Positions 13,741-36,231 of a stretch of 39,702 bases of DNA are shown here, one piece after another. Source of the DNA: Bacteroidota bacterium (GTDB taxonomy: Bacteria > Bacteroidota > Ignavibacteria > UBA10030); the NCBI GenBank assembly GCA_021813905.1, contig JAKAJH010000029.1, positions 1 to 39,702 on the forward strand, in the 5' to 3' direction. Positions within the stretch are counted from its first letter, which is position 1; each line of letters starts with the position of its first letter. The position numbers and the translations under genes are program-made. The notes beneath the pieces are model-generated. The model did no database searches. It saw nothing but the letters and a program-made list of their open reading frames with translations, and was not told the DNA's origin.

Positions 13741-14193
13741 ATGCGTCGTGGCCCGGCAACCATATCGAAAACCGTCCTGAGCCGAACGGACAGCCTGTCG
13801 GAGATGCGGGAGTTCATCGCGGCTCTGGCGCGTGAGTCCGGCTTCCCGGATGATGAGGTCGCGAACATCGTCCTGGCCGTCGACGAGGCCTGCACGAACA
13901 TCATCAAGCACGCGTATCAGTACGCGCCGGACAAAGAGATCCGTGTTACCGTGTCCCGGTCGTCGAAGGCCTTCGAAATCCGGATCGAAGACGACGGCCG
14001 CTCGTTCGATCCCTCCGCCGTGCACGCGCCCGACCTGAAGGAGCATCTGACTCACTTTCGTCGCGGGGGTCTTGGGGTCTATCTCATGAAGAAGCTGATG
14101 GATGATGTGGAATACAAATTCCAGCCGGGCAAGAAGAATCAGGTTCGCCTGGTGAAACATCTTCCGTCCAACGCCGCTGCAGCACGCCGATGA
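13741..14193 (+). CDS. RsbW-type anti-sigma serine kinase (HATPase_c_2)
   Basis: 150 aa, a single GHKL ATPase domain. N box DEACTNIIKHAY, G1 box EDDGRSFDP and G2 box RRGGLGVYLMKK are seen, so ATP binding should be intact. Family role: phosphorylates the STAS protein and binds and inhibits a sigma factor or another output. No sigma factor gene is nearby. The start ATG lies 15 bp after the STAS gene, and the stop overlaps the next ATG (ATGA). Confidence 0.92.
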   Translation: MRRGPATISKTVLSRTDSLSEMREFIAALARESGFPDDEVANIVLAVDEACTNIIKHAYQYAPDKEIRVTVSRSSKAFEIRIEDDGRSFDPSAVHAPDLKEHLTHFRRGGLGVYLMKKLMDDVEYKFQPGKKNQVRLVKHLPSNAAAARR

Positions 14194-24862: not shown

Positions 24863-24877
24863 GAACGTGGCACGTTC
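24863..24877. promoter_or_regulatory. Perfect 15-bp palindrome upstream of an FN3 lipoprotein gene
   Basis: GAACGTG-G-CACGTTC, two 7-bp arms around one base, 40 bases before the next start codon. It could be an operator. As an RNA hairpin its loop is small and no T run follows, so a terminator is less likely. The rest of the 145-bp gap shows nothing definite. Confidence 0.4.
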
Positions 24878-24917
24878 CTTGCCGTTTTGGATTTACCACA
24901 CTGTCGCTGAGGAAACC

Positions 24918-25721
24918 ATGAAGCACGCCATCCCGTTTGTGATCCTTGCGATCCTGTCTCTTGGATGCGAGAAGGTTAATACCGTCGATACCACGCCGCC
25001 GGCGGTTCCGCAGGGCATTCGCACGGTTTCGCTCGACAACGCGATTCAGATCGACTGGCTGCCAAGCCAGGATGCGGATCTGGCCGGCTACAAGGTCTGG
25101 GCAAGCAGTCGTTATGACGGCGCGTACCATTTGCTTGGCACGACCACGGCAACCACGTTCGTGGATGACGGGGCCGTCAATGGTGTCACGACGTTCTACG
25201 CGGTGAGCAGCTTCGATCGCGATCACAATGAAAGCGCGCTGAGTAAGGACGTCGTGTACGATACGCCGCGGCCCGAAGGGTACAACGTCGCACTCGCCGA
25301 ATTTCATGCATCGCCGGCGACCGCTGGTTACGAATTCTCCAGCGGGACGGTGGGTCCATACGACGACGCGTACACGGATTTCTATTTCGACAACGCTTCC
25401 GGCGTGTATCGGCTGGACGTGTGGTCGGACACGGACATCCAGGACATGGGATACACCGCGTCGCTCGATGAAATTTCCAGCGCTCCGGACGCCGGATGGG
25501 CGCCTTCAGGCACGGCGGAAGCGATCGTCGGTCACACCTACATCATCTGGACCAAGGATAATCACTACGCCAAAGTGCGTGTTCGTCAGGCCGGCGCGAG
25601 TGGAATCGTGTTTGACTGGGCGTATCAGACGGCGGTGGGGAATCCTGAACTCAAACGGTCCAGCCCGCGCCCGTCGCGCCCGACGGAATGGCTCTCGGGG
25701 ACTCGCCCGCAAGCGAACTAA
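24918..25721 (+). CDS. Lipoprotein with one fibronectin type III domain
   Basis: 267 aa. The signal peptide ends in lipobox LSLGC (Cys about 17). The FN3 domain covers roughly residues 27-110: PPAVPQGI, then IQIDWLPSQDADLAGYKVW, TTTFVDDGAVNG and TTFYAVSSFDRDHNES. The C-terminal 150 residues are an unrecognised, beta-rich, aromatic domain (YTDFYFDNASGVYRLDVWSD). FN3 lipoproteins of this type are common surface or periplasmic proteins in Bacteroidota-like genomes; no enzyme motif is seen. The frame is open further upstream, but ATG 24918 has GAGGA before it and starts a proper signal peptide. Confidence 0.85.
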   Translation: MKHAIPFVILAILSLGCEKVNTVDTTPPAVPQGIRTVSLDNAIQIDWLPSQDADLAGYKVWASSRYDGAYHLLGTTTATTFVDDGAVNGVTTFYAVSSFDRDHNESALSKDVVYDTPRPEGYNVALAEFHASPATAGYEFSSGTVGPYDDAYTDFYFDNASGVYRLDVWSDTDIQDMGYTASLDEISSAPDAGWAPSGTAEAIVGHTYIIWTKDNHYAKVRVRQAGASGIVFDWAYQTAVGNPELKRSSPRPSRPTEWLSGTRPQAN

Positions 25722-25739: not shown

Positions 25740-25768
25740 TTGATTTTTCCCGGGTTTTGAGATATGTT
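25740..25768 (+). promoter_or_regulatory. Sigma-70 promoter at the start of the DUF4783 gene
   Basis: TTGATT (25740-25745), 17-bp spacer, TATGTT (25763-25768). The transcription start would fall near 25775-25776, where the best signal-peptide ATG lies, which suggests a leaderless transcript. Confidence 0.6.
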
Positions 25769-25775
25769 GGGTGTG

Positions 25776-26252
25776 ATGCGGAGGCAGACCGCAATACTGA
25801 TGTCAGCGCTTCTGCTGAGCGGCACTGCCGCCAGCCAGCCTCCGGGCCGCACCGGTCCGGTTCCCTCGGTGCGTGCGGTGATGCAGCACGCGCAGCCCAA
25901 CGCCCGCATCGCCGCGATCCGTGCCTTGTTCGATCGGGTTCAGCGTTCCATGACGTCCGGTTCCGTGGACGGCATGAGCGCGGATCTGGCGCCATTTGTC
26001 GATGTCAACATCGTTGGCGAAGAGCCGGGTCGCTATTCCGCCAACCAGGCGGCATCCATACTCGGCCGCTTCTACCTTGCCCGAAAGCCCATCGCTTTCT
26101 CCTTCACCAGCATTGTGGATACGCTGTCACTCCCGTATGCCACCGGACCGATAAGTTCGATCCGGCGAGGCAATCGGGAGACAGCGCAGGTGTACGTTTC
26201 CCTGCGTCGGATAGGATCCCGGTGGCGGATCGCCCAACTGAACATCTATTAA
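25776..26252 (+). CDS. Secreted DUF4783-like protein
   Basis: 158 aa. The start MRRQTAILMSALLLSGTAASQ is a clear Sec signal peptide with likely cleavage after TAA or AAS. The body matches the DUF4783 pattern of Bacteroidota: SADLAPFVDVNIVGEEPGRYSANQ, AASILGRFYLARKPIAFSF and a C-terminal strand RIAQLNIY, an NTF2-like small fold of unknown role. Three in-frame ATGs exist (25764, 25776, 25800). The first lies inside the -10 box, and 25776 gives the best signal peptide. GGAGG at 25780-25784 is 15 bases before 25800, too far for normal use. Confidence 0.82.
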   Translation: MRRQTAILMSALLLSGTAASQPPGRTGPVPSVRAVMQHAQPNARIAAIRALFDRVQRSMTSGSVDGMSADLAPFVDVNIVGEEPGRYSANQAASILGRFYLARKPIAFSFTSIVDTLSLPYATGPISSIRRGNRETAQVYVSLRRIGSRWRIAQLNIY

Positions 26253-26278: not shown

Positions 26279-29200
26279 ATGCCGGCCTCTGTCCGGTGGC
26301 CGGCGCTGGTCGCACTCGTCTGCATCGCGGTGATGGGGGTGGTCTTCGTCGTCGGGATGATTCAGGAACGCCGTGCGGGACTGAATTGGCCGGAGGTCGC
26401 GGCGGAACGCGATGCCGCTCTGGTGCGGTCGGTGCAACAGATCTTCCGGAGTGAATTGGACGATCTGCTTGGAACGGCGGGGGTTGTCCGTGGGCACGCG
26501 GAGCTGTACTCGGACGGGGGCGCGGCCGATCGTGCATCGTCCTTCGCGTGGCTGCGGAATCTGCGAGCGCGCGCGGGAATCTCTGTGGACATCATTGATT
26601 CGACGGGACATCCCGTGCTCTGGGCCGGCCGTTCCGTACGGAGCAAGTACCAATCCCTTCTTCCGGGCGGGGGGATCCACACCGAAGCTTTCATCACCCG
26701 CGATGGGCTGCAGACGTACCTCAGCGTGGAAGTGCGCGGGGACGCGGGGCATGCCGTCGTCGTGAGCCGTCTGCTGGAATCGCGCTTCCCGATCTCAACG
26801 CGATTCCTCCGTCCGGCACACTTTCCGGCAGCGGTGTTCGATGAGACCGGCGCCCGCGTTGGACTTGAACTCGATTCAGCGGGAACGCAGGGTGCGGATC
26901 TGCTCCGAATCCCTTTGATGTCGTTTGACGGTCGGGCCCTGGCTTACGCAGTCGCCCCGGCACCACAGCAGCAGGATGCGATTGTCGGCATCCGGCAACA
27001 GACGCAGGATCTGCTTCAGGTCCTTGGCGGGATCGTTGCAGCGCTTCTGACCTGGAGCGTTGTTGTGCAGGTATCGCGAGGTGTGCGGAAGGAATTGCGT
27101 GTCGTCCTCGCGATGGCAGGCATCTGGGCCGTCCGTTTGCTCTGGATTCGTCTGGCTGTGCCGGCGGCGGTCATGGGGGGGGCGCTTGCCGATGCGTCGC
27201 TGTACGGATCATCGTTCGGCGGGGGGCTGGCGAGTACGCCTGTCGATCTCATACTCAGCGGAGCGTCGCTGCTGTGGAGCGTTCTGCTGCTCGGAACGTT
27301 GTCGATGCGCCCGGCGAGGACCGCATTGGCTCTGGTCCGCCCGGTTCAGATACGCCGTGCAGTGGCCGGGGCGGAGCTCCTCATTGGCGCGTTGGTTTTC
27401 GTCCTGTTCGTGCGGGCGTTTGCGGCTGTCCTTCGAAGTTTCCTGTTTGATTCCACGGCAGCTTACCAGGATCCGACGCGAATCCTCCCGGATGCTTCCA
27501 CGGCGCTCCTCTTGGCGGCAATGGCGCTCGTCGCGTCGGCATTCTACGGTATCTTCTTCGTCCTCGTGGCCGTGATGGATGTTGCGGCGCAGGAGAGCGG
27601 GGGCAACCGGGCCAGCCGCCGGCTGATGGAGGTGGGGTTGAGCGTCGGCGTTTCGCTGGCATTGCTGCGCTGGTCGGAGGAAACACCTCTGTGGCCGTGG
27701 TACATGCCGTTCTACGTCGCGGGCATTGTGCTGGCGCATCGATGGTGGATTTCGCGGCCGCGCGTCGGGACGCGGGCCGGTCGGGTGGAGGGTTGGCGAC
27801 CGACGGTCATCTGGTTGAGTGCGGCCTTCCTTGTCACGGCACCGATGTTCTACGCGCGGGTCGAGGAGCGTGAGCGCGCTCAGGTGGAATCGCTGGCGGC
27901 GGAGGTCCTTCGCCCTGCGGATGCCTGGCTGAGCTACTTACTGACGGATGGCATTCGCACCGTGGCAGGAATCGTTCATGGGTCGGAGGGGGAGAATCCG
28001 TTCGATCCGGCCGTAGCTCCTTCCTCCGCACTGAATGCGTGGGCACGGATGCTCGTGAGCCGTCAGGGATACAATTCCGGCGTGTTCCTTTACGATTCCA
28101 CAGGGCATGAGGTCGACCGGTTCGTGGTCGGCATCGAATCGTATGACCAGCGGGCGATCCTGACAAAGCTGTTCGACTACGGGGAAGAAACGGTTCAAAC
28201 GATCGAGCGGACGAACGGCCGGGACGTGCTGAGCGTGTATGGCATCTGGTCCACGATGCGTTCGTCGGACGGGAGACTACTGGGCAGCGTGGCGATCATT
28301 CTTTCCACGGGTACGGGAATTCTCCCGGGGCGTTCGGCCTCCTTGCCGTTTCGCGGCAGCGGTGGATTGCCGGACTGGCGGGATCTGTATCTGACGGAGT
28401 ATCGGGATTCGTCCGTGGTGTCGACCTCGCGTCCCGACCTTTTCACCGGGATTCGTTTGGGCCCGAATGTGCGCGCTGCGTTGGACCGCCAACCGGAATT
28501 CGGCCACTGGTTCCGCGAGCAGGGGGAGGATCGTCCGTACATGACGCTCTATGTTCGGGATCCCGCCGATGCGCACCATGTCCTCGCGGTGAGCATCACG
28601 GCGCTCGACATCCGCTGGTACGCGTTTACGGTCATGAAGCTTCTGAGCGTCTTTGCGCTGATCGGACTCCTGATCGCCGGTGCGCAGCGCGGATGGGACA
28701 TAAGCAGGGGTCGTCGCATTACACTGACGGTGGGACAGAAACTGTTCGGGGGATTCGCCATCATCGCGGTCATGCCGCTCATCGTGCTCGGGTATTACAA
28801 CCGGGCGGTGTCCACCGAACGGGTGCAGGATCTGATGGAGCGGACGCTACGGCGCGATCTCGAAGTCGTCGAACGGCGGATTGTGACATATGTCGAGAAT
28901 GAGGACGACTTCGTACACGGAGTGACGGACGAGTTCTGCCGCGCTGTGTCGGCCGAATACGGCACGGACTTCACGGTGTATCGCGGTGATTCCCTGCTGG
29001 CTACGTCGCGTCCCGAATTATACCGTGCGGCCCTGTTCGACAGCCGGCTCGATGGCACCGCGTATGCGCACAGCGTGCTGGAAGGCCGGGCGTTCTACAT
29101 GCTTTCGCAGACGGTCGGCAATGTCCCGTACGCCGTGGGATTTATGCCCGTGAACATCCGGGGACAGCGGGCCGGTGTGGTGTCGATCTCCACGCTGTAC

Positions 29201-30154
29201 CGCCAGTCTGACATCGAACGCGAAGTGGCGGAACGAAATGTCAATGTGGTCGGCGTTTATGCGATCGTCGTGCTGCTGGCTCTGGGGGCGGGAGGGTTGC
29301 TGGCGGCGCGGCTGGCGCGTCCGCTGCAGGAGCTCTCTGCGGCAGCGCGCGACGTAGCGCGGGGCGATTTCGATCCGCAGATCTCGTATCGCGGGCGGGA
29401 TGAACTCGGCGACCTGGTGCTGGAGTTCCGCGCCATGGCATCGGAACTGAAACGCAGTCGTGAAGACCTGGCCCATGCCGAACGTGAGCGAGCCTGGAAG
29501 GAAATGGCGAAACAGGTTGCGCACGAGATTCGTAATCCGCTGACGCCGATCAAATTGTCCGTGCAGCACCTTCGGCAGGCGTTCCAGGACCGGGCGGCGG
29601 ATCGGGAGGAAATCCTGCAACGCGTCACGAAGACAGTCCTCGAGCAGATCGAGACGCTCTCGCGGATTGCGCTCGAATTCTCGCATTTCGCACGCATGCC
29701 GGATGCACGAGTCGAGCGTCTGAATATTCATACGCTGCTGGACGAAGCGTTGGCGGTTTTCAGCGAGGTCCAGGGAGTGGAATGTCGGCGTGCGTTCGCC
29801 GACGGAGAAATCGTCGTGCTGGTTGATCATGATCAGATGCAGCGGGTCTTTGTGAATATTGTGCGGAATAGCATCCAGGCGATGCCGAAAGGTGGCGTTG
29901 TCACCGTGACGACCGCTGTCGAGGGCCACGGGTGCCGTGTGCGGATCTCGGACACCGGGCCGGGAATCCCGGCGGGCGTCCGAGCCCGGATCTTCGAGCC
30001 GAACTTCTCCACGAAGACGGAAGGGATGGGCATCGGGCTGGCTATTGCGCGACGGATCGTCGAGGACGCCGGCGGGCGGATCGACTGTGAGAGTGAACCG
30101 GGATCGGGGACAGCGTTCATCATTGATTTGCCTGTGGCCGGAGAAAGTACGTGA
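26279..30154 (+). CDS. Very large multi-sensor membrane histidine kinase (NtrY-like core)
   Basis: 1291 aa, about twice the usual size. One membrane segment (~8-28), an extracytoplasmic region (~30-240), a block of about seven segments (~245-528), a second extracytoplasmic region (~530-780), two segments (~780-845), a third extracytoplasmic region (~845-985), a final segment, HAMP (~1010-1062), HisKA with phospho-acceptor His in VAHEIRNPLTPIKLS (H1082), and HATPase with N box NIVRNSIQAMP, G1 DTGPGIP and G2 GMGIGLAIARRI. The core resembles NtrY. No response regulator is adjacent. ATG 26279 is the first start after the previous gene; its ribosome site is poor. The stop overlaps pgeF by 4 bp. 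Confidence 0.88.
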   Translation: MPASVRWPALVALVCIAVMGVVFVVGMIQERRAGLNWPEVAAERDAALVRSVQQIFRSELDDLLGTAGVVRGHAELYSDGGAADRASSFAWLRNLRARAGISVDIIDSTGHPVLWAGRSVRSKYQSLLPGGGIHTEAFITRDGLQTYLSVEVRGDAGHAVVVSRLLESRFPISTRFLRPAHFPAAVFDETGARVGLELDSAGTQGADLLRIPLMSFDGRALAYAVAPAPQQQDAIVGIRQQTQDLLQVLGGIVAALLTWSVVVQVSRGVRKELRVVLAMAGIWAVRLLWIRLAVPAAVMGGALADASLYGSSFGGGLASTPVDLILSGASLLWSVLLLGTLSMRPARTALALVRPVQIRRAVAGAELLIGALVFVLFVRAFAAVLRSFLFDSTAAYQDPTRILPDASTALLLAAMALVASAFYGIFFVLVAVMDVAAQESGGNRASRRLMEVGLSVGVSLALLRWSEETPLWPWYMPFYVAGIVLAHRWWISRPRVGTRAGRVEGWRPTVIWLSAAFLVTAPMFYARVEERERAQVESLAAEVLRPADAWLSYLLTDGIRTVAGIVHGSEGENPFDPAVAPSSALNAWARMLVSRQGYNSGVFLYDSTGHEVDRFVVGIESYDQRAILTKLFDYGEETVQTIERTNGRDVLSVYGIWSTMRSSDGRLLGSVAIILSTGTGILPGRSASLPFRGSGGLPDWRDLYLTEYRDSSVVSTSRPDLFTGIRLGPNVRAALDRQPEFGHWFREQGEDRPYMTLYVRDPADAHHVLAVSITALDIRWYAFTVMKLLSVFALIGLLIAGAQRGWDISRGRRITLTVGQKLFGGFAIIAVMPLIVLGYYNRAVSTERVQDLMERTLRRDLEVVERRIVTYVENEDDFVHGVTDEFCRAVSAEYGTDFTVYRGDSLLATSRPELYRAALFDSRLDGTAYAHSVLEGRAFYMLSQTVGNVPYAVGFMPVNIRGQRAGVVSISTLYRQSDIEREVAERNVNVVGVYAIVVLLALGAGGLLAARLARPLQELSAAARDVARGDFDPQISYRGRDELGDLVLEFRAMASELKRSREDLAHAERERAWKEMAKQVAHEIRNPLTPIKLSVQHLRQAFQDRAADREEILQRVTKTVLEQIETLSRIALEFSHFARMPDARVERLNIHTLLDEALAVFSEVQGVECRRAFADGEIVVLVDHDQMQRVFVNIVRNSIQAMPKGGVVTVTTAVEGHGCRVRISDTGPGIPAGVRARIFEPNFSTKTEGMGIGLAIARRIVEDAGGRIDCESEPGSGTAFIIDLPVAGEST

Positions 30155-30894
30155 ACAGTACGGGACTTGTGCGGCCGCTCGATCTGAACCGGCTGCCGGG
30201 AGTTCATGCCGTGGTCAGCACAGCGGAGGGCCGATCCGCTGAACGGCCGCTGGCGGGTAATCTGAGTTATCGCGTGGGGGATGATCCGGCTCAGGTCCGA
30301 AAGAATCGGGACGCGCTCTTTGCGCTGATCGGCGCAACGGAAGATGTGCTTGCAACGCCCGATCAGGTGCACTCGGCGTCCATCCGATGGGTCGATCAGC
30401 CGGGGCGCCACGAGGAGTGCGATGGCCTGATGACACGCACGCCGGGCCTGGCGCTCGGTGTCACGATCGCGGACTGTGTCCCCGTCCTCCTGGCCGACCC
30501 CGTGCGCGGTGTTGTCGCCGCCGTTCACGCCGGATGGCGCGGATCGGCGGAACGGATCGTGCAGAAGGCGGTCGCCGAAATGGTCTCAACCGCCGGGAGC
30601 GATCCGCATGAAATCCGGGCATACATCGGTCACGCGGCAGGCGCCTGCTGCTATGAGGTCGGCGGGGAAGTGGCCGATCGTTTTCATGATGGCGTACGGC
30701 ATGTCCGCCAGGGGCGTATTTTTCTCGACCTGAAAGCCGAGAATCGAAATCAGTTGCTCGCGGGCGGACTCCGAGAGTCTCACATCACGCTCGGTCCGGA
30801 GTGTACGATCTGCTCGCCCCGCCTGCATTCCTACCGGCGTGACGGCGCACGGTCCGGAAGAATGATGGCGGTCATTCTGCGTCGGGAGAGGTGA
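30151..30894 (+). CDS. pgeF: Peptidoglycan editing factor / YfiH laccase-domain protein
   Basis: 247 aa, full length. Conserved metal-site segments are all present: ATPDQVHSA, VTIADCVPVLLAD, AAVHAGWRGSAERIV, GHAAGACCYEVG and CTICSPRLHSYRRDG. In E. coli, PgeF is a zinc-dependent amidase that removes peptidoglycan precursors carrying L-serine in place of L-alanine; older annotations call it a laccase. It starts with GTG overlapping the kinase stop (GTGA) and lies 11 bp before glmS, so it is grouped with another cell-wall precursor gene. Confidence 0.93.
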   Translation: MNSTGLVRPLDLNRLPGVHAVVSTAEGRSAERPLAGNLSYRVGDDPAQVRKNRDALFALIGATEDVLATPDQVHSASIRWVDQPGRHEECDGLMTRTPGLALGVTIADCVPVLLADPVRGVVAAVHAGWRGSAERIVQKAVAEMVSTAGSDPHEIRAYIGHAAGACCYEVGGEVADRFHDGVRHVRQGRIFLDLKAENRNQLLAGGLRESHITLGPECTICSPRLHSYRRDGARSGRMMAVILRRER

Positions 30895-30905: not shown

Positions 30906-32738
30906 ATGTGCGGAATCGTCGGCTACGTCGGTACCCGGAATTGCGTTCCCGTTCTGCTGGACGGCCTGCAGCGTCTCGAATACCGCGGTTATGACTCGGC
31001 GGGCATTGCAGTATTGGACGGCGGGTCGTTGTCGGTCCACAAGCGCGCCGGGAAAGTGGCCGATCTCCGCGCGATGATCGATCACGGGACGATCCACGGA
31101 ACTGTCGGGATCGGGCATACGCGTTGGGCGACGCACGGCATCCCGAGCGATATGAACGCGCATCCGCACCTGGATTGCAGCGGCAGCATCGCTGTCATTC
31201 ATAACGGCGTGATCGAGAACTACGCTTCCCTCAAGACCCGGCTTCAAAGCCAGGGGCATGTGTTCCGGTCTGACACAGACACGGAAGTGCTGGCCCACCT
31301 CGTCGAAGAACAGTACGGGCGCTCCGGTCGGTTGGATCACGCGGTGCGCAGTGCGCTGGCGCAGGTGACCGGGACGTACGGCCTGATCGCGATGAGTACC
31401 CGGGATCCGGAAATGCTTGTTGTCGCACGCCGGGGAAGTCCGATCGTCATCGGCTACGGCGCGGAAGAAGTCTTCGTCGCGTCGGATCCTTCGGCGCTGG
31501 TTCAGCACACGCGCTCCGTATCGTATCTGGAAGACGGCGAGGTTGCGGTGGTGCGCCGCGGCGGGGTCGAGACGAAGACGCTGGATGACGTTCAGATCCG
31601 CAAGGAGGTGCAGCAACTGACGTTCGATCTCGAAGAGATCGAAAAGGGGGGATATGCGCATTTCATGCTCAAGGAAATCCACGAGCAGCCGGAGACCATC
31701 GCGAACGCTCTTCGCGGGCGTCTGCTGGCGGAGGAAGGGCAGGCGAAGCTGGGCGGCCTTGACCCGGCGCTCGGGACGCTCGACCGTGCCCGCCGGCTCA
31801 TTCTGACGGCCTGCGGTACGTCGTGGCACGCGGCGCTCATCGGCGAGTACATGCTGGAGCAGTACGCGCGGATCCCGGCTGAGGTGGAATACGCCTCGGA
31901 GTTCCGGTACCGCAATCCGGTGCTCGACGGGAATGATGCGGTGATGCTGATCAGCCAGAGCGGCGAGACGGCGGATACGCTGGCGGCGCTGCACGAGGCG
32001 CGACGACGGGGAGCTGCCGTGCTGGGCGTGTGCAACGTAGTGGGCAGTTCCATCGCACGGGAAACGGACGCCGGCGTCTACGTCCATGCCGGACCGGAGA
32101 TCGGCGTGGCGTCGACGAAAGCATTCACCTCACAGCTCACAGTGCTTGCGCTGATCACCTTGCTGCTGGCGCGTCGGAAGGGAATGTCGCCGTCGGAGGG
32201 ACGTACGCTCGTCGCGGCGCTGCAGCGGCTTCCGGAACAGGCGCGGGAGATCGTGGCTGCGGGCGAAGCAGTGGCTTCGATCGCCCGGGAATTCGCGCAT
32301 GCCCGCAATTTCCTCTACCTCGGCCGCGGATACAATTTCCCGGTTGCGCTGGAAGGAGCGTTGAAGCTGAAGGAAATCTCGTACATCCATGCCGAAGGAT
32401 ATCCCGCCGCGGAAATGAAGCACGGCCCGATCGCTCTCATCGATGAGAATATGCCCGTGGTCTTCATCGCGCCTCACGACGGCACATATGACAAGGTCCT
32501 GAGCAACATTCAGGAAGTGAAAGCCCGCAAAGGGCGAGTGATCGCCATCGTCAACGAAGTCGACGAGCAGATCCGTTCGCTCGCGGATCATGTGATTGTT
32601 GTGCCGCCGACGCTGGATCTGTTGACGCCCATCCTCACCATCATCCCGCTGCAGCTTCTTGCCTACCACATTGCGATTCTGCGCGGATGCAACGTAGACC
32701 AGCCGCGCAATCTCGCCAAAAGCGTTACGGTCGAATAG
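30906..32738 (+). CDS. glmS: Glutamine-fructose-6-phosphate aminotransferase (isomerizing)
   Basis: 610 aa. It makes glucosamine-6-phosphate for peptidoglycan and LPS. The N-terminal glutaminase begins MCGIVGYVG, with Cys as nucleophile after Met removal. GHTRWATHG and the two SIS domains follow (ACGTSWHAAL, SQSGETADTLAAL and YLGRGYNFPVALEGALKLKE), and the C-terminus ends RNLAKSVTVE. ATG 30906 has GGAGG 5 bases upstream and puts Cys at position 2, as required; an in-frame upstream ATG would not. No glmS ribozyme is seen: upstream sequence is the pgeF coding region. Confidence 0.98.
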   Translation: MCGIVGYVGTRNCVPVLLDGLQRLEYRGYDSAGIAVLDGGSLSVHKRAGKVADLRAMIDHGTIHGTVGIGHTRWATHGIPSDMNAHPHLDCSGSIAVIHNGVIENYASLKTRLQSQGHVFRSDTDTEVLAHLVEEQYGRSGRLDHAVRSALAQVTGTYGLIAMSTRDPEMLVVARRGSPIVIGYGAEEVFVASDPSALVQHTRSVSYLEDGEVAVVRRGGVETKTLDDVQIRKEVQQLTFDLEEIEKGGYAHFMLKEIHEQPETIANALRGRLLAEEGQAKLGGLDPALGTLDRARRLILTACGTSWHAALIGEYMLEQYARIPAEVEYASEFRYRNPVLDGNDAVMLISQSGETADTLAALHEARRRGAAVLGVCNVVGSSIARETDAGVYVHAGPEIGVASTKAFTSQLTVLALITLLLARRKGMSPSEGRTLVAALQRLPEQAREIVAAGEAVASIAREFAHARNFLYLGRGYNFPVALEGALKLKEISYIHAEGYPAAEMKHGPIALIDENMPVVFIAPHDGTYDKVLSNIQEVKARKGRVIAIVNEVDEQIRSLADHVIVVPPTLDLLTPILTIIPLQLLAYHIAILRGCNVDQPRNLAKSVTVE

Positions 32739-35066: not shown

Positions 35067-35111
35067 AAGAACCCCATGCAAGTCAAGCACTTGCAGGGGG
35101 TTCTTCTTTTT
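35067..35111 (+). terminator. Strong intrinsic terminator after tRNA-Phe
   Basis: AAGAACCCC pairs with GGGGTTCTT and, after one mismatch, TGCAAGT with ACTTGCA; the loop is CAAGC and the tail is CTTTTT. The integrase stop codon (35083-35085) on the other strand lies inside this hairpin, which may also stop the integrase transcript. Confidence 0.88.
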
Positions 35112-36231
35112 CGGTGTGCGCTTCCAGAGGGGGATGCAGTGGAATTGCAGTATCGAAGATCGGATTGCTGAATATACCGGCGATCTCTCCAGCCGAGAGG
35201 GAATTGTAGTAGTCCATTGTCGTCTGCATGGACTTGTGGTTCGCCAGTATGTGAAGCTGGGGCGCGGACGCGCCGCTGCGGATAGCCCACGATACGAACG
35301 TCTTTTTCAGCGTGTGGGCGCGTTTCTTTGAGTCGGGCATACACTGAGCCATGAATCGCCGGAGACGTTGCGCTACGGTGAAGCTCGTGCGGTATTTGAA
35401 GACGTAGGGGGTATAGGCGCGGGACGTGGATTGCAGGAGCGATCTCAGCGCATGGTGAAGGGGGAAGGCGTTATCGCGGTGTCCCTTCTGGTTGACGTGA
35501 TACAGTACCCCCGCCTCGAATTCAACGTCAGTCCATTGCAGCTTGCACGACTCTCCAGATCGAAACCCTGTCAGCAGCAGGAAGAGCAACTGGTCGCGGA
35601 AGTCGCGGTCGTGCTCGTCGAGGTAGCCGAAAAGCGTCCGCAGTTCGTCGTTCGTGAACGTGGTGGGACGGCTCTTCTTTGGCCGCAGCCGAATCTTGCG
35701 GCTGATCGGATTTGCCTTCATAAGCGGCGGTTCGTGCAAGACCGCCCAGTTGAAGAACGCCGAGAGTTGCCGCAGGCGTTTGGCGACGGTGTTCTGGGAG
35801 AGCTTCTTTGTCACCCCACTTTTCAGCACCCTCGATTCCGATAGCCAGCGCGTCCGAGCTGTGAGGATGGCGCTCTGGTCAATGGCGCTCAGATGGCAGT
35901 TGTCGGTCAGCGCCACCAGAGCTTCCACGGCCAGTCGCGCCTGATAGATACTCCCCTCAGTGAGATCGGGCGATACCTCCGCCAGATACAGATTGAACGC
36001 ATCGGTGAGGCGAACGGGATTGAGCTTCGAATCCTCGATGCCCCACTGGTTCAGGCGTATCTTTGCCTCAAGGCGTTCCTGAAAGTCCACGGCCTCGCGG
36101 GGAAAGACGACCTCTCCGCGCTTGTTCTTTCTAACCTCTGGAACGCGGATACCCGTGGACTCATCCTTGCGAACACCGTTGACGGTGAATCCTATCCAGA
36201 TTGTCTTTCCGCGAAAGTACAGGGAGGACAT
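35083..36231 (-). CDS. int: Tyrosine-type site-specific integrase
   Basis: 382 aa. The N-terminal arm-binding and SAM-like core-binding parts lie at about 1-185; the catalytic domain is at ~195-370. Catalytic residues seen: Arg I in TGFRSGES, Lys in NQKGHRDN, and His followed by Lys-Lys in AHTLKKTFVSW, where the second Arg of the family (HxLR) is replaced by Lys. His is in ANHKSMQTTMDYY, with the nucleophile Tyr in DYYN. It catalyses integration and excision, here into tRNA-Phe. Its ATG overlaps the stop of the secreted-protein gene (TAATG), so its translation is coupled to the lysogeny-type operon. Confidence 0.92.
   Translation of the reverse strand: MSSLYFRGKTIWIGFTVNGVRKDESTGIRVPEVRKNKRGEVVFPREAVDFQERLEAKIRLNQWGIEDSKLNPVRLTDAFNLYLAEVSPDLTEGSIYQARLAVEALVALTDNCHLSAIDQSAILTARTRWLSESRVLKSGVTKKLSQNTVAKRLRQLSAFFNWAVLHEPPLMKANPISRKIRLRPKKSRPTTFTNDELRTLFGYLDEHDRDFRDQLLFLLLTGFRSGESCKLQWTDVEFEAGVLYHVNQKGHRDNAFPLHHALRSLLQSTSRAYTPYVFKYRTSFTVAQRLRRFMAQCMPDSKKRAHTLKKTFVSWAIRSGASAPQLHILANHKSMQTTMDYYNSLSAGEIAGIFSNPIFDTAIPLHPPLEAHTEKEEPPASA

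Follow-up and report, generated by a model that had tools for sequence, protein, structure and literature searches.

The 39,702-nucleotide contig JAKAJH010000029.1 (assembly GCA_021813905.1; Bacteroidota, class Ignavibacteria), which we refer to as the window, encodes on its forward strand a sensor histidine kinase of 1291 amino acids (aa) with 12 predicted transmembrane (TM) segments and three Cache-like domains (26279..30154). It belongs to a conserved, enlarged kinase family common to many bacteria of the phylum, and profile matches and distribution point to an unlinked regulator of the NtrX type as the probable missing partner. Its C-terminal domains were found by Pfam: HAMP at residues 1007-1058 (29297..29452, forward strand), followed by HisKA (1073-1140, with H1082 in AHEIRNPLTP) and HATPase_c (1183-1286), which together span 29495..30136 on the same strand. 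Before residue 1007 Pfam gives nothing over the cut-off, and it has no PAS hit in this protein between the end of HAMP at 1058 and the start of HisKA at 1073. The frame is one gene, uninterrupted over its 1291 residues, as a previous reading based on the sequence only had proposed. That it might instead consist of two genes is ruled out by the 33 kinase loci from the organism's own order (the order loci), each of which has a single frame; the lone stop printed for locus L057 is the gene end, since the frame there is 1280 aa long. Moreover, a tblastn-type search of 41 genomes returned long matches in 34, the own genome included, with 26-39% identity in relatives and some matches beginning at query positions 76-159. 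Seven genomes have no long match, namely six from families f4 and f5 and the 55% complete G001, where G numbers stand for genomes (G000 being the own genome), f numbers for family groups and L numbers for loci. The kinase evolves fast, with 32-38% identity among same-family loci in which the nearby pyrB reaches 82-89%.

Among 194 loci examined, 144 hold a long member of the family, and their alignment was used for hydropathy and entropy. The family-mean hydropathy has 12 main peaks: one near residues 10-28 (TM1, 26306..26362, forward strand, seen in hydropathy and model), eight in a membrane block (245-263, 275-293, 324-342, 367-385, 408-433, 451-465, 475-492 and 508-528), and later peaks at 782-800, 822-840 and 990-1008. 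The block (TM2-TM9, residues 245-528, 27011..27862, forward strand) has no Pfam hit. Single sequences give 7 to 13 segments (12 in 54, 11 in 53 and 10 in 28 of the 144), the window protein alone giving 10 at the threshold used. Residues 1-1065, modelled with AlphaFold2 from 32 sequences (mean pLDDT 75.3, pTM 0.68), likewise show eight block helices. Three considerations underlie the count of 12, namely the family mean, the model and the requirement that the number be even: the predicted 1+8+2+1 arrangement leaves both termini in the cytoplasm, which 1+7+2+1 does not allow. Of the earlier topology, the three extracytoplasmic domains are retained, but the seven-segment block is rejected in view of the eight hydropathy peaks and the eight model helices.

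Predicted structures suggest a Cache-like fold for each of the three outer domains. Domain D1 (residues 29-244, 26363..27010) is modelled with a dCache-type fold of the dCache/CHASE4 kind, double PAS-like behind a long helix; over the modelled and matched residues 32-236 it resembles 2p7j (Z 12.8, rmsd 3.1, 184 aligned) and KinD 4jgq (Z 12.7, rmsd 3.0, 170 aligned). The window protein does not match Pfam dCache_1 even at E-values up to 10, and of 32 members one does (E 0.0061). D2 (residues 529-781, 27863..28621; own model with pLDDT 82.1), modelled alone, resembles PAS/Cache domains (3cwf, Z 10.0, rmsd 3.2, 104 aligned) and compares with double-Cache chains at Z 8-10 with an rmsd of about 6-9, which makes it the weakest of the three assignments; neither D1 nor D2 gives a Pfam match over the cut-off. 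D3 (residues 841-989, 28799..29245) appears to be a single Cache-like domain with a WalK/CitA-like fold (7dud, Z 12.3, rmsd 3.2, 136 aligned; 8biy, Z 11.6, rmsd 3.2, 117 aligned). It scores 18.5 bits against sCache_3_3, under the Pfam gathering score of 28.8, and 7 of the 32 members match at E <=0.01. At that threshold, five families are found in the 32 members, namely HAMP, two sCache_3 types, PAS_8 and dCache_1, the last two in one member each. The whole-model structural comparison covered mainly residues 32-236 and 847-980. Overall, the three domains support the proposal, made from the sequence alone, of a sensor for several envelope inputs. The 12-segment topology also places two conserved loops outside: EL1 (residues 294-323, 27158..27247, order consensus FPxxxxGGxLFDPxxYASPFG) and EL2 (residues 386-407, 27434..27499, order consensus RSFVFDSTLxYxDP). 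Their mean entropy over the 144 sequences (2.54 and 2.59) is below that of D1 (3.29), D2 (3.18) and D3 (2.85); that of TM11, TM12 and HAMP equals or falls below the level of the loops. Few sensor positions are retained in at least 80% of the sequences; they include R286 at the end of TM3, P295 in EL1 and S392 in EL2.

Our comparison extended to 296 genomes of the phylum, of which 135 are matched by a sensor-only profile built from the order; with a broader profile, long frames are more widespread and many weaker matches are other kinases. The long relatives, of 1074-1480 aa, are spread across the phylum, with members in Ignavibacteriales, Rhodothermus, Mucilaginibacter, Pontibacter, Hymenobacter, Algoriphagus and Flammeovirga, and also occur in some Acidobacteria and in bacterium HR33. 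Thirteen Flavobacteriales loci were looked at: twelve have kinases of 478-498 aa with two TM segments (e.g. L122, L134, L139 and L144), which retain only the D3-like domain, HAMP and the core, and L137 is a fragment of 305 aa. Genomes with short frames of this kind also have the NtrX-like regulator described below. Among the top matches of larger result sets, a search of the open-licence literature yielded no paper on the family.

The kinase has no response regulator gene beside it, as had been stated from the sequence, and this extends to the family: no receiver domain is encoded on the whole 39.7-kb contig, and a receiver gene is adjacent to the kinase in none of the 144 loci and within four genes of it in two, in a survey with heuristic gene calls and a profile from eight own sequences, where some loci are cut by contig ends. 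The two receivers, phosphatase-like in output in L126 and LuxR-like in L266 (both by eye), are two and three genes away. We rejected them as partners, both being single cases; the L126 receiver matches the candidate described below only over the receiver (33% over 122 residues). Of the 49 HATPase_c matches in the own genome, a number that counts hybrids, 34 lie within 3 kb of a receiver and 15, some of them at contig ends, do not. Thus, an unlinked kinase is a minority case in this genome although not a unique one, and it is the persistence throughout the family that stands out.

The earlier statement that the kinase has no partner holds for adjacent genes, but an unlinked NtrX-like regulator co-occurs with it. 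Mapping of the orphan regulators, which the sequence-only reading had suggested, gave 72 matches to the receiver profile and 13 strong ones to sigma-54 activators in the own genome, and one unlinked regulator among them co-occurs with the kinase (G000:C20:77294-78670). This protein of 459 aa consists of a receiver, a sigma-54 AAA+ domain and a Fis-type helix-turn-helix (HTH) domain, the composition of NtrX. Of the NCBIfam models it matches NtrX best, at 456.4 bits, which is below the equivalog cut-off of 600; it is the only one of five own regulators compared for which this is so, the other four matching AtoC best. The orthologue in many members (L283, L286, L288, L289 and others) is about 390-400 aa long and matches only to about residue 375; from their sequences, these versions seem to lack the Fis DNA-binding domain.

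Across the 296 genomes, 141 have both kinase and regulator and 110 have neither, while a full kinase occurs without the regulator in one and the regulator without a kinase in three; the other 41 combine the regulator with a short (30), weak (8) or partial (3) kinase. The kinase class was set by profile E-value and listed frame length, and in 18 of the 29 f30 genomes the frame is unlisted and was taken to be short like the 11 listed ones. Regulator presence was set by E-value and corrected by a 44-row tree of 30 loci from 34 chosen genomes (G058, G065, G145 and G150 gave none) together with own regulators, the bootstrap of which is not fully settled. A clade of 13 rows (12 different sequences, support 100/98) unites the own regulator with G186, G236, G255 and members of f25, f27, f30, f34 and f37. 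Outside it are five f26 hits and those of f5, f8, f10, f12, f16 (G209), f19, f24, f39, f48, G055 and G211. The remaining f26, f27 and f30 members were assigned with their family mates by assumption, as E-values overlap (up to 2.5e-124 in f26, about 1e-112 in f27). Counted per family group, the numbers are 31 with both, 1 with the kinase only, 3 with the regulator only and 15 with neither (Fisher p 5e-9, uncorrected for phylogeny).

Alternatively, the kinase could signal to a different regulator, and the NtrX-like protein would co-occur only as an old gene lost in the same lineages. We regard this as unlikely, although two observations favour it: the double absence stems from few groups, with 64 of the 110 genomes belonging to f26, and several of the 72 receiver matches are unlinked to kinases. 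However, kinase and regulator are also jointly missing from single genomes of families that otherwise have both (G055 and G211 by the tree, G150 by E-value only), and the double-absent families f5 and f8-f13 keep PorX and some sigma-54 regulator. Furthermore, two other unlinked regulators of the own genome, an orphan NtrC and PorX, mismatch the kinase pattern. The orphan NtrC (C4:40131-41582), mostly strong within the window's class too, gives strong matches in G270, G299 and G307, which are without the kinase. Outside that class, its E-values in genomes that do have the kinase are at best about 1e-124, f29 excepted; it was rejected as a partner on this mismatch.

In the order loci, the kinase lies in a cluster that reads pyrR-pyrB-pyrC-lipoprotein-DUF4783-kinase-pgeF, often with glmS next, the lipoprotein gene not being found in some. 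The gene directly upstream of the kinase in the window encodes a DUF4783 protein with a signal-peptide-like N-terminus by eye (25764..26252, forward strand); this gene precedes the kinase in 31 of the 33 order loci, the other two ending at a contig edge. The open-licence literature that we searched contained no paper with the term DUF4783. Downstream follow, also on the forward strand, pgeF (30151..30894), which overlaps the kinase stop by 4 bp, and the less constant glmS (30906..32738), both specific to the order as neighbours. One could therefore view the kinase as a cell-wall sensor functionally tied to these two genes, a link that the sequence-only reading had drawn and that we now hold to be very improbable. 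Within the order, the arrangement is indeed conserved: pgeF directly follows the kinase in all 30 loci where this is visible, the other three ending at contig edges, and glmS is present in 24 of 33, missing from six (among them L065 with only 0.8 kb left) and not assessable in three. In contrast, the 110 loci surveyed outside the order set have pgeF once and glmS never, and include pyrC in 23, a lipoprotein profile match in 27 (four of these spurious, downstream of the kinase) and DUF4783 in 43, of which 40 lie at most about 1 kb upstream on the same strand. Beyond the order no other neighbour is as frequent as DUF4783, yet the majority of loci outside the class are without it. Elsewhere in the phylum the kinase adjoins pyrBC, UbiA/DUF420, mnmG or TrkA/TrkH-like genes. 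Among 34 clustered loci it follows UbiA-family and DUF420 genes in ten, which we take to be a cytochrome-oxidase cluster, and mnmG and a methyltransferase gene in three. TrkA/TrkH-like genes, named by eye and found via similarity to those of L104, are at positions +1 to +3 after the kinase in 8 of the 144 loci. With such other neighbours outside the order, the wall genes are not a constant partner of the kinase.

Least probable of all is that the kinase feeds the orphan regulator PorX and controls type IX secretion: PorX is encoded in the own genome and no kinase is tagged in the 17-kb stretch around it, but it occurs in 229 of the 296 genomes, including most kinase-less families (f5, f8-f13, f19, f20, f24 and f39, though not f26 or f48) and G055, G150 and G211, and was rejected because its distribution does not follow the kinase. 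At L275:1-5992 (G000:C4), PorX, identified by NCBIfam far over the cut-off, is located between sprA-like and tsaE-like genes (by eye), and the organism probably carries type IX secretion genes.

The lipoprotein gene upstream of DUF4783 (24918..25721, forward strand), labelled fn3 by eye, has no Pfam hit over the cut-off and no NCBIfam hit. Its product is conserved at 44-60% identity within the order, and the printed N-termini show by eye a hydrophobic stretch ending in Cys, with a strict lipobox pattern in 20 of 27. At this point the cluster has a conserved sigma-54-type promoter motif, which in the window is TGGCACGTTCCTTGCC (24868..24883, forward strand), 34 bp before the lipoprotein start, whose ATG is preceded by GAGGA. 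Ten bases separate the -24 GG from the -12 GC; many relatives have GA or GG at -12. Within the window alone, the pattern does not stand out from chance (9 hits vs 6.5 expected when two mismatches are allowed); the evidence for the promoter is its conservation. Of 26 order loci, 24, among them that of the window, have TGGCAYN5TTG at most 150 bp upstream of the lipoprotein gene; the other two, L067 and L069, retain TGGCAC and differ at -12. The pattern is absent upstream of 11 other neighbour genes, each represented by 2 to 32 loci, and 569,410 bp contain only 31 plus-strand hits. The highest weight-matrix score before the lipoprotein gene averages 11.3, compared with 1.7 for backward-read sequence. 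Moreover, in 26 loci of the class and of the Ignavibacteriales, the motif precedes 23 of 23 lipoprotein genes upstream of the kinase by 27-62 bp (starts in compared loci were estimated by homology), and the motif hits in the whole 415,615 bp of these loci also number 23. A genome-wide scan allowing one mismatch gave 19 hits vs 47 in the backward control and is no evidence by itself; a variant pattern gave 83 vs 38 hits in six genomes. Genes downstream of variant-pattern sites include Hsp20-, FliL- and kinase-like ones (by eye), and in four order genomes sigma-54-like sites stand before Hsp20-like genes, again by eye (L399, L388, L353 and L350, the last falling in an opposite long frame).

Two other features of the window were recorded: a tyrosine recombinase gene (Phage_integrase, PF00589) at 35083-36231 on the reverse strand, and a small HATPase_c match in an open frame of 155 aa at 13867-14151 on the forward strand, possibly an anti-sigma-type kinase.

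On balance, we consider it likely from these sequence comparisons that the phylum has a split, enlarged NtrYX-like two-component system with this kinase as its sensor half. In the mechanism that we infer, including the signal, the phosphotransfer, the role of DUF4783 and the use of the promoter by the regulator, cues from the periplasm or the membrane, which the DUF4783 protein might present, would shift the kinase/phosphatase balance of the sensor via D3 and HAMP. The kinase would then phosphorylate the unlinked NtrX-like sigma-54 activator, which together with sigma-54 would drive its targets, probably including the -24/-12 promoter of the lipoprotein-DUF4783-kinase cluster, and the outcome would be feedback on envelope genes. 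More tentative, and in our view somewhat short of an even chance, is the broader proposal of a phylum-wide three-component system, in which a 12-TM kinase with its eight-segment block as a new membrane sensor bearing the conserved loops EL1 and EL2, a secreted DUF4783 modulator and an unlinked NtrX-like sigma-54 regulator, often without DNA-binding domain, would control the envelope lipoprotein operon via a class-conserved promoter.

Several observations weigh against the NtrYX-like reading. In G209 the kinase occurs but the regulator does not, in G186, G236 and G255 the reverse is true, and G132 (f9), which has no kinase, sits beside the regulator clade at the end of a long branch. The co-occurrence partly reflects shared ancestry. 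Any of the 13 strong sigma-54 activators, five of which were compared by NCBIfam, could use the lipoprotein promoter, and matrix scores of at least 9 also occur elsewhere (pgeF in 2 of 31; pyrR, DUF4783, glmS and SDR in one each). Loci L046, L051, L056 and L058 keep DUF4783 and the kinase and have neither a lipoprotein hit nor a strict site before DUF4783; the promoter thus follows the lipoprotein gene rather than the kinase, which argues against simple autoregulation. Finally, the kinase has no PAS domain between HAMP and HisKA. The NtrY-like character of the core that had been read from the sequence is supported only indirectly, by the NtrX-like regulator and the TrkA/TrkH-like neighbours, but not by this domain. 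Partners of orphan kinases are seldom matched from sequence, and this family gains a specific, testable candidate regulator, together with candidates for a periplasmic third component and for a target promoter.

Among known systems, WalK and CitA share the fold of D3 but differ in overall architecture (7-13% identity in matched rows), and the dCache/CHASE4 sensors KinD, DctB, LuxQ and PA2072 are similar in the fold of D1 at 5-15% identity. PorXY, from the same phylum, also has an unlinked regulator, and PorX is present in the own genome with a distribution that differs from that of the kinase. NtrY combines HAMP, HisKA and HATPase_c with a PAS domain between HAMP and HisKA. We do not classify our kinase as NtrY, since it has neither this PAS domain nor an adjacent ntrX: here the regulator is unlinked, and the kinase has two extra outer domains and the eight-segment block. 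On the other hand, it shares with NtrYX and PlrSR the HAMP-HisKA-HATPase core after a periplasmic Cache/PDC domain and, as its candidate partner, an NtrX-like sigma-54-type regulator. In the literature, the PAS domain of NtrY is named and a direct role of NtrYX in the Rhodobacter sphaeroides cell envelope is described (PMC7240162), while the Bordetella NtrYX-family system PlrSR is modulated by PlrP, a predicted periplasmic DUF4390 protein encoded just upstream, with trkAH downstream of plrSR and trkAH adjacency reported for proteobacterial NtrYX (PMC13001219). The parallels include a small, probably secreted DUF protein encoded upstream, DUF4390 there and DUF4783 here, which are separate Pfam families, and trkAH-like genes downstream in some lineages. 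By analogy, the system may work like NtrYX; if so, the NtrYX theme of envelope control with a secreted third component would reach beyond the proteobacteria, with a new eight-segment sensor module.

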